From a virus, in IMG/VR virus record IMGVR_UViG_3300013094_000019, positions 85,681 through 149,680 of that record: a stretch of DNA of 64,000 nt; one strand, given 5' to 3'. This document shows, piece by piece, positions 8,029 through 63,794 of this stretch; the first letter of the stretch is position 1, and the number at the start of each line of letters is the position of its first letter. The position numbers and the translations under genes were made by a program. Under the pieces are notes generated by a model. That model searched no databases. It saw nothing but the letters and a program-made list of their open reading frames with translations, and was not told the DNA's origin.

Positions 8029-8961
8029 ATGGCTCGTTACAATACATCCTTGGCATCTACCAGTGTAAGTACTACTACAAATATTAGTACACCAAACTCG
8101 GGAGCATTTACCGAATTAACCGGCACCGCTCCTTATACTGTTACATTGCCAAACCCAACATTGTATCCTGGCCAGACACAGACTTATTATAATGTAAGTA
8201 CCGGTACACTAACACTTAGTACACCGAGTGGAGTATTTGCTGGAGGTGCATCTAGTGGCACCTCCACTCAAACATTCCCAACAGGTACTACTATTACAAT
8301 AGTAAGTGACGGTACAAACTACATTATTCTGAATGAAGATGGCGGCGCACTAGCCGCAACTACTATTTCAGCAACGAGTACTGTTACATTGAGTCCGGCA
8401 AATGCCACAGTTACTATTAGTCCATCAGGAACTGGCACTGTAACAATCAGCCCAGCAACTGCCGGATCTATTAGCAACATGGCCATTAGTGGATCTACTG
8501 GATCTTTTACAACCTTGGGAGCAAGTAGTACTGTTACTTTTACTAGCGGTATGACAGTAAGTGCAGGCAGTTCGAGTTTCCAAGCATTGTCGGCAACAAG
8601 TTTAAGTGGACCATTAACTGGAACTATACAAACTGCATCGCAACCTAATATTACTAGTCTAGGTACTTTGACTAGTTTAGTAGTTGGAAATTCAAGCGCA
8701 TTTTCAATCAACAGCAGTGGACAATGGGCATCAGCTCCTGTGCCAAACAGTTCAGGCGGACAAAGTCTAGGAACATCAAGTTTGCGTTGGGGCACAGTCT
8801 ACACAAACGACTTAGCATTGAGCAATGGTATTGGTGATTACACTATTGTTGAAGGTGAAGAAGATCTGTTTCTGTACAATAACAAAAACGGAAAAGTTTA
8901 TAAATTTTTAACACAAGAAGTGGATCCATCAACAGCTCCACCAAAAGGCGTACAGTTTTAA
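8029..8961 (+). CDS. Tail fibre protein (paralog of the 13739 gene)
   Basis: The first ~110 of 310 residues (start MARYNTSLAST, through FTELTGTAPYTVTLP to the motif DGTNYIILNEDGG) are clearly paralogous to the fibre gene at 13739. The middle is a low-complexity Thr/Ser/Gly/Val region with short beta repeats such as VTISPS, followed by SSLRWGTVYTNDLALSN, a sequence type often found near fibre tips. Unlike its paralog it lacks the S74 chaperone tail and ends in a short charged segment (GKVYKFLTQEVDP). The 3' end overlaps the convergent halogenase gene by 4 bases. A receptor-binding or fibre-shaft role is inferred. Confidence 0.7.
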   Translation: MARYNTSLASTSVSTTTNISTPNSGAFTELTGTAPYTVTLPNPTLYPGQTQTYYNVSTGTLTLSTPSGVFAGGASSGTSTQTFPTGTTITIVSDGTNYIILNEDGGALAATTISATSTVTLSPANATVTISPSGTGTVTISPATAGSISNMAISGSTGSFTTLGASSTVTFTSGMTVSAGSSSFQALSATSLSGPLTGTIQTASQPNITSLGTLTSLVVGNSSAFSINSSGQWASAPVPNSSGGQSLGTSSLRWGTVYTNDLALSNGIGDYTIVEGEEDLFLYNNKNGKVYKFLTQEVDPSTAPPKGVQF

Positions 8962-10472
8962 ACTTTTAATCCGCTAGCAAGCTCATAAGGAAACTGTTTG
9001 TGAAGAATAGTTTCCTTATTTTGCATCATAATCTCATAATTTGTTGGACATTTAGTGTGCTGATACTTGTTATGTTTTAAATAGAAATTAATCAACATGT
9101 CTTTTACCACAGGAGTGTGTATAGGCGTCGGTTTACCTTTGATACCGACACTGTGTAACCAGATGTTCCAGCTGTGATGACCGAATATTAAATAATCATT
9201 TGTGCTTTGAGGTCTTGTTAGATCTTCCTGATGAAGATCTATTTTCATTTGCAGAGTTTCGCTAGGGCGCCAATTAGCACGGACTTGATCCCAGTATACA
9301 CTCGATCTTTGATTATTCATATAATGTAGCCCCACAAAATCAGTGGCATCGTCGTATAACAGTTCTAGTCTATTATTAAAAATATCTCGTTCGGTCTGTG
9401 TGTAAAATAATTTAGATATCATGTTGTGCAATAGGACAACACCGTCGGTGATTAGTGCGAGGCCAGTACTTTCTAAGGGTTCTAAAAATCCACTAGCCAG
9501 TCCTATACTAACAACATTGCCACGCCAATTGCAAGCATTGTATTCTGGTTCCCATTTGATACGATTAAAAACACCAGTCTTTAAACGCTTTTCTCCCCAG
9601 TGTTGTACAAACAAATCAATAGCGCCTTGCTCGTCAAGCAAATCTCTGTTGTAGACCAATCCACTGCCTATTCTTGTCTGAATCGGAGTTTTCCACATCC
9701 AACCATGTTCCATGGCCTGAGCAGTGGTATAAGGTTTCATTTCTGTTTCAGGATTTTCATATTCTACAGGAGTTGCAATGGCCGCATTATTAGGTAAGCA
9801 GTAAGATTTATTAACATACTCACTGCCAGGAAGGGCTCCAGACAACAATCGTTTAAATCCAGTACAATCGATAAACAAATCTGCTGTGACTTCGCCGAGA
9901 TTAGTGACAAATATCTTAGATATTACACCGTCCTCAACTACGACATTTTCAACATTTTCTTGATAATGTTTAATGTGGGGTGCAACTTTTGAACTAACCC
10001 AGTTAGCAAGTTTTACAGCATCTAGGTGAAAGGCCATCTGATCGGCATTGGGGATTTTGTTGTGCAATACGCAAGTATCATAGTCCATCTGCGCTAGTTG
10101 ATAGTATGATTCATCACTGAAATCTGTGTTGTAAAATAGGTCAACTGCTGTGGTAAAGTGATCTTGCTTGGGAGTCTGACTAAATTGATGCCAAATATTA
10201 ATGTCGTTTCCTCGCCAATTAGGACTAAAAATACCGGCCTTGTATACAGCATCTGCAGCCTGCATCCATTCTGCTTTTTCAAATCCACATGATTTTAAAA
10301 ATTTATCAAAGTTTAATATGGTTGCTTCGCCAACTCCTACAGTAGGAATATTTGGGCTTTCAATTAAGGTTAAATTTATCATGGGCAAATTACGCTTGAT
10401 AAATGCCGCTGTAAGCCAGCCAGCAGTTCCGCCTCCTACAATACAAATTTCTTTGACTCGATTCACTTTCAT
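8958..10472 (-). CDS. Flavin-dependent (tryptophan-type) halogenase
   Basis: This 504-residue protein matches the FAD-dependent tryptophan halogenase family (PrnA/RebH type, usually about 530 residues). The FAD-binding GGGTAGW motif is at residues 13-19. The catalytic lysine sits at 78 within VYKAGIF, and the PLEST motif with the catalytic glutamate is at 332-336. The family signature WxWxIP appears as WMWKTP (258-263), with Ile replaced by Thr. Members use FADH2, oxygen and chloride or bromide to make a hypohalous acid that is steered to a substrate; the substrate here is unknown. It is the only minus-strand gene in the 1-20 kb fibre region. An AGGA ribosome-binding site and a late-promoter-like octamer (GTTAAATA) lie upstream on the same strand. 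Family assignment is firm; actual halogenation is inferred. Confidence 0.88.
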   Translation of the reverse strand: MKVNRVKEICIVGGGTAGWLTAAFIKRNLPMINLTLIESPNIPTVGVGEATILNFDKFLKSCGFEKAEWMQAADAVYKAGIFSPNWRGNDINIWHQFSQTPKQDHFTTAVDLFYNTDFSDESYYQLAQMDYDTCVLHNKIPNADQMAFHLDAVKLANWVSSKVAPHIKHYQENVENVVVEDGVISKIFVTNLGEVTADLFIDCTGFKRLLSGALPGSEYVNKSYCLPNNAAIATPVEYENPETEMKPYTTAQAMEHGWMWKTPIQTRIGSGLVYNRDLLDEQGAIDLFVQHWGEKRLKTGVFNRIKWEPEYNACNWRGNVVSIGLASGFLEPLESTGLALITDGVVLLHNMISKLFYTQTERDIFNNRLELLYDDATDFVGLHYMNNQRSSVYWDQVRANWRPSETLQMKIDLHQEDLTRPQSTNDYLIFGHHSWNIWLHSVGIKGKPTPIHTPVVKDMLINFYLKHNKYQHTKCPTNYEIMMQNKETILHKQFPYELASGLKV

Positions 10473-62735: not shown

Positions 62736-62771
62736 AAAAAAAATCCCCTGACCAACATAGTAGCCAGGGGA
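62736..62771 (-). terminator. Rho-independent terminator of the AAA+ gene transcript
   Basis: On the minus strand TCCCCTG (62771-62765) pairs with CAGGGGA (62750-62744) over a 14-nt loop, followed by eight T residues (62743-62736). Confidence 0.85.
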
Positions 62772-62775
62772 CCTA

Positions 62776-62858
62776 AAAAGGCATTGCCGGGAGCGAATCG
62801 GGCTTATGGTGCCTTTTAAGTGTGTCTAGTTACCGGGAGCGAATCGTTGGCTAGACAC
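62776..62858 (-). ncRNA. Twin stem-loop RNA element with identical loop
   Basis: Stem 1: AAAAGGCA (62776-62783) with TGCCTTTT (62810-62817). Stem 2: GTGTCTAG (62822-62829) with CTAGACAC (62851-62858). Both loops contain CCGGGAGCGAATCG (62787-62800 and 62833-62846), preceded by TT right after the stem and followed by TGG right before it. The stems share no sequence. Assigned to the minus strand because it lies between the AAA+ stop and that gene's terminator. An RNA element is inferred, not proven. Confidence 0.55.
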
Positions 62859-62884: not shown

Positions 62885-63763
62885 TCACGCTCTTGTGTTA
62901 CGCATACAGGTTACTTCTGCTACAGCCTTCCACTTAGCAGGCATGCTTACTCGTATGTCTGCTACCTTAAGCACCATACGCAAGCTGAGCTCACGCATAC
63001 GACTCGCATTGTCTGCAATGAAGTCTACTACTTCTGCTTTGGCATAGTCCTCTAAGTCATAGTCATCAAGCATGCCACAGTCGCGTACTACTTGTCGTAT
63101 ACGGAGGAGCTTCTCACGCTCTGTGTCAATGGTCAAGTCTAGATAGTGACAGCGTGACTCAATGGCTTCCAAGTGATCTTTCAGCTTCTTGCTCTTGACG
63201 TGCTCGAACTTGATGTTGGTAATAAAGATAGCACCGCCCTTGAACTCAAAGCTGTTGGGCACACCCTGATCCTTAAGAAGCCTGCTGTCTGTGTTCCAGT
63301 GGATCATACGCCGCTTGCCTGAGTCCAATGCTGCCTTTAGAATGTTCAAGCTCAAGTCATCTAACAGCACTGAGTCACAGTCATCGAACACTAGTATTGA
63401 CTTCCGGTCGCTGTACTCATAGAGCTTGCTGTAGAGTCCTAATGCACTCATAGCACCTTTGACTACTTCGTACTTCTTCAACTTGCCGTCTTGTGCTACA
63501 TTAGCGAACACATCATGCTTGCTGAGTACTTTCTCTACACCAAAGCTCTTGCCTACTCCTGGAGGGCCAGTTACGATCATGGCTTTGACATCGCCTTTCT
63601 TAACAGCACGGGTCATGTCTTCTAGGATCTCAAAACGATCGCTCAATCGTTGCATGATCTCTTCGTCTGTTTCGTTCAAGTTCTTCTTTACGGGCTCTTG
63701 CTCTAGGCTCTTGTGTTCTGCCTGTAGGGCCAATAACATCTTGCTGGTAACTACCTTGCTCAT
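62885..63763 (-). CDS. AAA+ ATPase
   Basis: The 292-residue protein has Walker A GPPGVGKS at 66-73, Walker B ILVFDDCD at 123-130, a sensor-1-like FITNIK near 172, and a C-terminal helical lid with DNASRMRELSLRMV. A helical N-terminus with acidic residues precedes. It belongs to AAA+ single-copy ATPases found in large marine phages; remodelling of a protein or DNA complex is the generic role, target unknown. It has a near-perfect sigma70 promoter with a palindromic spacer, AGGAG ribosome-binding site and its own terminator, so it is a self-contained early unit. Confidence 0.82.
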   Translation of the reverse strand: MSKVVTSKMLLALQAEHKSLEQEPVKKNLNETDEEIMQRLSDRFEILEDMTRAVKKGDVKAMIVTGPPGVGKSFGVEKVLSKHDVFANVAQDGKLKKYEVVKGAMSALGLYSKLYEYSDRKSILVFDDCDSVLLDDLSLNILKAALDSGKRRMIHWNTDSRLLKDQGVPNSFEFKGGAIFITNIKFEHVKSKKLKDHLEAIESRCHYLDLTIDTEREKLLRIRQVVRDCGMLDDYDLEDYAKAEVVDFIADNASRMRELSLRMVLKVADIRVSMPAKWKAVAEVTCMRNTRA

Positions 63764-63794
63764 ATACGCTCCTGTATAAAGTATTTAAGTTAAT

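Follow-up and report, generated by a model that had tools for sequence, protein, structure and literature searches.

Repeated hairpin loops 3' of a phage AAA+ gene are complementary to a Shine-Dalgarno tag of early genes: a candidate multi-loop antisense RNA

The phage translational regulator RegA of T4 (PF01818) controls some 30 early and middle mRNAs at their translation initiation regions (PMC3014915). The locus described here is like RegA in its predicted task and scale. However, RegA is a protein that recognizes AU-rich, AUG-proximal sites, whereas here an RNA would read a sequence tag by base pairing. The element is a non-coding RNA and therefore has no RegA protein fold, and a search of 14 carrier records, some of them fragments, and of PA5oct detected no RegA.

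Base-pairing RNAs offer closer parallels for single features. In Staphylococcus IsrR and in FsrA, C-rich unpaired regions pair with the Shine-Dalgarno sequences (SDs) of several mRNAs (PMC9410917), so that both resemble the present element in addressing several mRNAs through C-rich, SD-pairing loops. Both are bacterial, however; their seeds match the SD with no added tag, and no seed/tag switch of a regulon has been described. OppZ and CarZ, sRNAs derived from operon mRNA 3' ends, pair with their own transcript and inhibit translation (PMC7398697), but each serves one operon, while here several identical loops would address many early and late genes. The phiKZ PHIKZ298 3'-UTR ncRNA, detected on Northern blots, is about 100 nt long and has two stem-loops, the second possibly a terminator (PMC8545117); compared by description rather than by sequence, it differs in that no repeated loop or ribosome-binding-site (RBS) tag has been reported. 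OOP, sar, aQ, PreS, VpdS, and 24B_1 are phage RNAs whose base-pairing partners are mRNAs of the phage or the host (PMC12197685), though such phage antisense RNAs and sRNAs are known mostly from temperate phages, with one or few described targets and no regulon-wide RBS tag. Each of these groups is a precedent for single features. The literature that we searched, an incomplete collection, held no description of the RNA or its tag, and Rfam 15 gave no match at gathering score (NsiR1, the best, scored 26.1 bits on the terminator, where 39 is required).

The hairpin locus and its conservation

Here we analyzed a 64-kb stretch of DNA (the window) that forms the end of a 149,680-base virus record. 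Its minus strand carries an AAA+ ATPase gene and, downstream of this gene, hairpin 1, hairpin 2, and an intrinsic terminator, in that order (Table 1). The original prediction had placed two adjacent hairpins with 8-bp stems (AAAAGGCA/TGCCTTTT and GTGTCTAG/CTAGACAC) between the AAA+ stop codon and a terminator, and this arrangement was confirmed. So was the identical 14-nt loop, CCGGGAGCGAATCG (62787-62800 and 62833-62846), which occurs nowhere else in the record, even with one mismatch allowed. On the RNA strand the two hairpins have CGATTCGCTCCCGG in common, and their stems are unrelated. Above its stem, hairpin 1 is predicted to form a 4x4 internal loop, CCAA/GUAA, and then C-G and G-C pairs that close a 9-nt loop, AUUCGCUCC. 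The predicted fold of the minus-strand RNA lies 3.9 SD below those of dinucleotide-shuffled sequences. Relatives of the AAA+ gene in Acj9, Ac42, CC31, and KVP40 carry the NrdC.10 annotation; the Pfam AAA matches of the window protein fall below the cut-off. The window contains no tRNA or tmRNA.

Table 1 Features of the hairpin locus, in positions of the window.
Feature	Position	Strand	Basis
AAA+ ATPase gene (T4 NrdC.10-like, phrog_1250), host transcript of the RNA	62885..63763	minus	PHROGs, 1.5e-83
AGGAGCG, partial regulon tag in the AAA+ gene's own Shine-Dalgarno sequence	63767..63773	minus	sequence (G000:149441-149453)
Hairpin 1 (class A), 8-bp stem GUGUCUAG/CUAGACAC	62822..62858	minus	fold; covariation of class A stems
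Core GAUUCGCUCCC of hairpin 1	62835..62845	minus	sequence
Hairpin 2 (class B), 8-bp stem AAAAGGCA/UGCCUUUU, same core in loop	62776..62817	minus	sequence; fold
Core GAUUCGCUCCC of hairpin 2	62789..62799	minus	sequence
Rho-independent terminator, predicted 3' end of the RNA	62736..62774 (also given as 62741..62774)	minus	fold

The 11-nt core GATTCGCTCCC (RNA strand; rarely GAATCGCTCCC) lies 3' of the AAA+ gene in all 80 of the relatives sampled, which were the best 80 IMG/VR matches of the AAA+ protein (73-88% identity), and a chance origin is excluded on this account. Two copies are present in 73 of the 80, three in two, and one in five, with the first core -2 to 85 nt from the stop codon. The stems around the core vary freely, yet they remain paired; loci that kept the loop on unpaired or absent stems, the case that the original prediction had named against itself, were sought and none was found. 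The conserved 14-nt loop with TT and TGG flanks that it had proposed holds for the window; across the family the 14-nt identity and these flanks are confined to some hairpin classes, and the invariant part is 11 nt long.

Two scans for stretches with two cores returned 66 and 82, nearly all adjoining the AAA+ gene, and in three contigs (L114, L125, and L136) the element follows a different gene. The terminator hairpin of the window is without a core, whereas in many relatives the core lies inside the terminator, which is then itself the last core hairpin. L138 and L148 have three hairpins each, whose perfect stems enclose exactly the 11-nt core; the third hairpin is the terminator. No core hairpins were found in named phages by blastn, and PA5oct NrdC.10 as a query brought no further relatives. 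The 34 double-core matches in bacterial genome contigs were tandem or coding repeats with no hairpin element.

Two kinds of variant locus were also observed. In L123 (4461-4769) and L130 (7032-7340, reverse strand), contigs with no AAA+ gene and with none or one tagged gene, an apparent sigma-70-like promoter (TTGACA, 17 nt, TATACT) directly precedes two core hairpins. In L005, L006, L009, and L032, an extra core-less hairpin lies between the two core hairpins, and its loop has a CCAAC...GGCAA pattern. The same pattern forms the core flanks in class A hairpins and is perhaps a separate structural module.

Among 36 distinct class A hairpins, both partners of each of the eight stem pairs vary, and the covariation score is 0.873, compared with 0.249 +/- 0.028 for shuffled stems and 0.05-0.09 for slid helices. 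The original proposal of selection on an RNA structure whose loop is sequence-specific is thus strongly supported. Every cell of the six inner pairs is paired, with seven G·U and no A·C, and the RNA is therefore the AAA+ sense (minus) strand. A U-tract behind the last core hairpin in 102 of 122 agrees with this strand. The element sits at the 3' end of an mRNA, with an intrinsic terminator at its own end. G1 and C11 never vary, whereas the pair of positions flanking the core can be C-G, U-A, G-C, A-U or G-U, plus A·G. The fold predicted for hairpin 1 has a G1-C11 pair and, above it, the 9-nt loop A-UUCGCUCC; L402 folds likewise.

Complementarity of the loop to a ribosome-binding-site tag

Eight bases of the loop, UUCGCUCC, are the exact complement of GGAGCGAA, a tag in the RBSs of the phage's own genes. 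This pairing partner, absent from the original prediction, was identified here. Lone core-like matches elsewhere in the large carrier genomes could be read as antisense matches that lack a phage target; their context overturned this reading, since on the other strand they are a Shine-Dalgarno sequence, GGGAGCGAATC, directly preceding ATG. In 12 records (2.5 Mb), GGAGCGAA occurs 126 times, of which 78 are 0-6 nt before the ATG of an ORF of at least 40 codons; the mean of this count over all 256 GGAGNNNN is 3.7 and the runner-up reaches 37, although the tag overlaps the SD and part of the enrichment reflects the SD anyway. The most over-represented pre-ATG 8-mer in the 12 records is AGGAGCGA (91/106), which holds seven of the eight tag bases. 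The consensus is a stereotyped Shine-Dalgarno sequence, A-GGAGCGAA-M-C-ATG. Single tag variants that preserve pairing through wobble were not clearly favored over others. The tag positions next to GGAGCGAA do not match the neighbors of the loop bases, as expected, because G1 and C11 would be held in the stem.

The seed is thus complementary to the RBSs of several genes, and we consider it highly likely that the locus encodes a multi-loop antisense sRNA that comes from the 3' end of the early AAA+ transcript and occludes the RBSs of a regulon. Transcription through the AAA+ gene, or from a putative phage promoter, perhaps with processing, would yield an RNA of approximately 100-150 nt whose two or three hairpins, in many cases with the terminator as the last, would each expose the seed UUCGCUCC. 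The seed would pair with GGAGCGAA in the SD regions of many early genes and, over a longer match, in a few late genes, covering the SD and blocking 30S binding. The predicted outcome is a coordinated shut-down of early translation together with restraint of chosen late proteins, including a holin. By inference, the RNA accumulates as a discrete species, acts in trans, and represses its targets; judging from the sequences, the early genes are very probably turned down as a group. The GGAGCG of the AAA+ gene's SD is complementary to CGCUCC of the loop, and the RNA would therefore damp its own transcript as well.

The pairing could also have the opposite effect, keeping tagged leaders open or shielding them from nucleases. 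The early leaders, which are CA-rich and probably unstructured, count in favor of such activation or protection, but the SD core GGAG would itself be paired and ribosome entry blocked. The predicted loop-tag pairing (-13 to -14 kcal/mol) is also stronger than the anti-SD pairing of the same leader (-7.7 kcal/mol), and we regard an activating role as quite unlikely.

Tagged genes and the reach of the RNA

Each genome has approximately 5-16 tagged genes, mostly in an early cluster upstream of the RNA. Of the 78 GGAGCGAA-ATG sites, 63 are on the strand of the RNA and at most 15 kb upstream of it, where 3% would be expected. AGGAGCG-ATG precedes at least three genes in each of the 29 contigs that extend 5 kb or more beyond the AAA+ gene on its upstream side; these upstream regions (263 kb) contain 225 such sites on the RNA's strand and none on the opposite strand. 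The window's record ends just upstream of the AAA+ gene, and for this reason its early genes are not visible; the AGGAGCG of the AAA+ gene, a motif found in this gene's RBS region in many carriers, is the sole, partial tag copy within this incomplete record. L183, the closest relative of the window with an upstream region (88%), has 11 sites, typically of the form CA-rich leader-AGGAGCGAAAC-TT-ATG. The targets are mostly small proteins of unknown function, and several families have kept the tag across 4-6 genomes. The GGAGCGAA-ATG counts of named NrdC.10 phages that lack the RNA are 0, 0, 0, and 2. In four carriers of the hairpins (G014-G017), exact tags are few or absent: G014 and G015 have loci with GGAGCGTA, and the contigs of G016 and G017, possibly fragments, have no or one tagged gene.

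Outside the early cluster we found 19 sites, at least 10 of them behind a T4-type TAAATA late promoter. These targets include a holin with three transmembrane segments, CsgF, a curlin-repeat protein, and DUF4337; some sites match the whole core, and a few late genes (CsgF, DUF4337, and others) have near-perfect matches. Co-variation of the flanks between hairpin and late target is genome-specific only in G009 and G010, which we count as one suggestive case because the two are identical at these sites.

This distribution bears on whether the hairpins act only in cis, pairing at the 3' end of a polycistronic mRNA with RBSs of the same molecule (looping or retro-regulation) and releasing no free sRNA. 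Most tagged genes are upstream on the same strand within 15 kb, and a search for a sigma-70-like promoter beside the RNA in the window found none, as such a mechanism would have it. However, tagged genes flank the RNA and continue past its terminator, as G022, L412, and the phages with a switched loop (below) show, which favors trans action; tags also occur in distant late genes under TAAATA promoters, and the stand-alone copies in L123 and L130 appear to have their own promoter. Action confined to cis is therefore unlikely, and we favor an RNA that acts in trans.

Some observations on the late genes stand apart from this question. In the 12 phage records, ATAAATAT and TAAATATT are over-represented just before ATG, which fits T4-type late promoters very near start codons. 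The curli-like phage genes, encoding CsgF (PF10614) and a curlin-repeat protein (PF07012), are located at G003:C1 68774-72324 (L281, L262) and at G013:C1 159988, and some have RBSs nearly perfectly complementary to the loop. At G009:C1:123350 and G010:C1:258185 (L265, L264), the late-gene RBS AAGTT-GGGAGCGAATC-AACT-ATG is an inverted repeat, complementary over 17 nt to the GTT[core]AAC hairpin of its own phage; the two may form a kissing-loop pair.

Joint change of loop and tag

The divergent L148 protein, used as a query, led to L411, whose protein is 56% identical to that of the window. The two hairpins of L411 display GATTGCTCCC, one base shorter than the usual loop, and its commonest RBSs are GGAGCAAA, GGAGCAAT, GGAGCAGA, and GGAGCAAG. 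A scan for a double GATTGCTCCC gave 15 matches, of which one, L428 (62%), is a true relative and the other 14 are coding or repeat sequence. L428 was chosen by its loop alone, and its RBSs were counted afterwards. This 71-kb record has 34 GGAGCAA-ATG sites (33 on one strand) and no GGAGCGA-ATG; the L411 record has 26 (25 on one strand) and one, respectively. Carriers of the usual loop are reversed, with 5-17 GGAGCGA and 0-6 GGAGCAA. In both L411 and L428, then, loop GAUUGCUCCC goes with tag GGAGCAA, a compensatory change of seed and target, although the two phages may go back to a single event and related genomes do not count as independent.

At the level of sequence, this switch is the strongest evidence for loop-tag pairing. 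The predicted energies agree only in part with loop/tag specificity: the usual loop favors its own tag (-13.3 kcal/mol) over the other (-8.9 kcal/mol), and the switched loop pairs almost equally with its own tag (-10.7 kcal/mol) and, via G·U, with the old one (-10.3 kcal/mol). Such G·U pairing is a plausible bridge for the switch. The YUNR U-turn motif (defined in PMC6172242) can be fitted to the main class as UUCG; the switched loop, AUUGCUCC, has none, and because the switched phages do not keep YUNR we do not claim a U-turn antisense loop.

The joint change also separates the roles that the original prediction had listed. An antisense sRNA at an mRNA 3' end stood up to it; a protein-only site and a plain mRNA stabilizer are made unlikely, as neither predicts that loop and tag change together. 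A loop bound by a host or phage protein, as in a CsrB-type sponge or decoy with only a secondary resemblance to RBSs, would likewise show one loop repeated on unrelated stems. However, what the loop displays is the antisense of the tag, not a copy, and a protein reading the loop would not require it to change jointly with the tag over 25-33 genes, so we hold a sponge to be very unlikely. Pairing of the loop with host rRNA seems extremely improbable. It could draw on a 9-nt complementarity (TTCGCTCCC/GGGAGCGAA) to the helix 24 region of the 16S rRNA of some bacteria, but it leaves both the regulon-wide tag and the joint change unexplained. We judged this match coincidental.

Returning to an antisense RNA that pairs with the tag, we think it probable that this large-phage lineage has a private translational code, in which an early-gene SD tag is read by a multi-loop antisense RNA, an RNA counterpart of RegA, and in which loop and tag have switched jointly, regulon-wide, at least once. 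If so, an RNA that reaches tens of genes through their shared RBS tag would add a new layer to phage temporal control, on a par with RegA. A further question is how all the genes of a regulon come to change their tag. The two natural versions, UUCGCUCC/GGAGCGAA and UUGCUCC/GGAGCAA (leaders AGGAGCGAAAC-ATG and GGAGCAAAC-ATG), make the mechanism directly testable in E. coli. Loop/tag pairs could supply multi-gene translational switches, and gene sets under translational control may be readable straight from metagenomic phage contigs.

Elsewhere in the window, a 504-aa ORF in the structural-gene region (8958-10472, minus strand) resembles, by eye, a flavin-dependent tryptophan halogenase, with GGGTAGW near its start.
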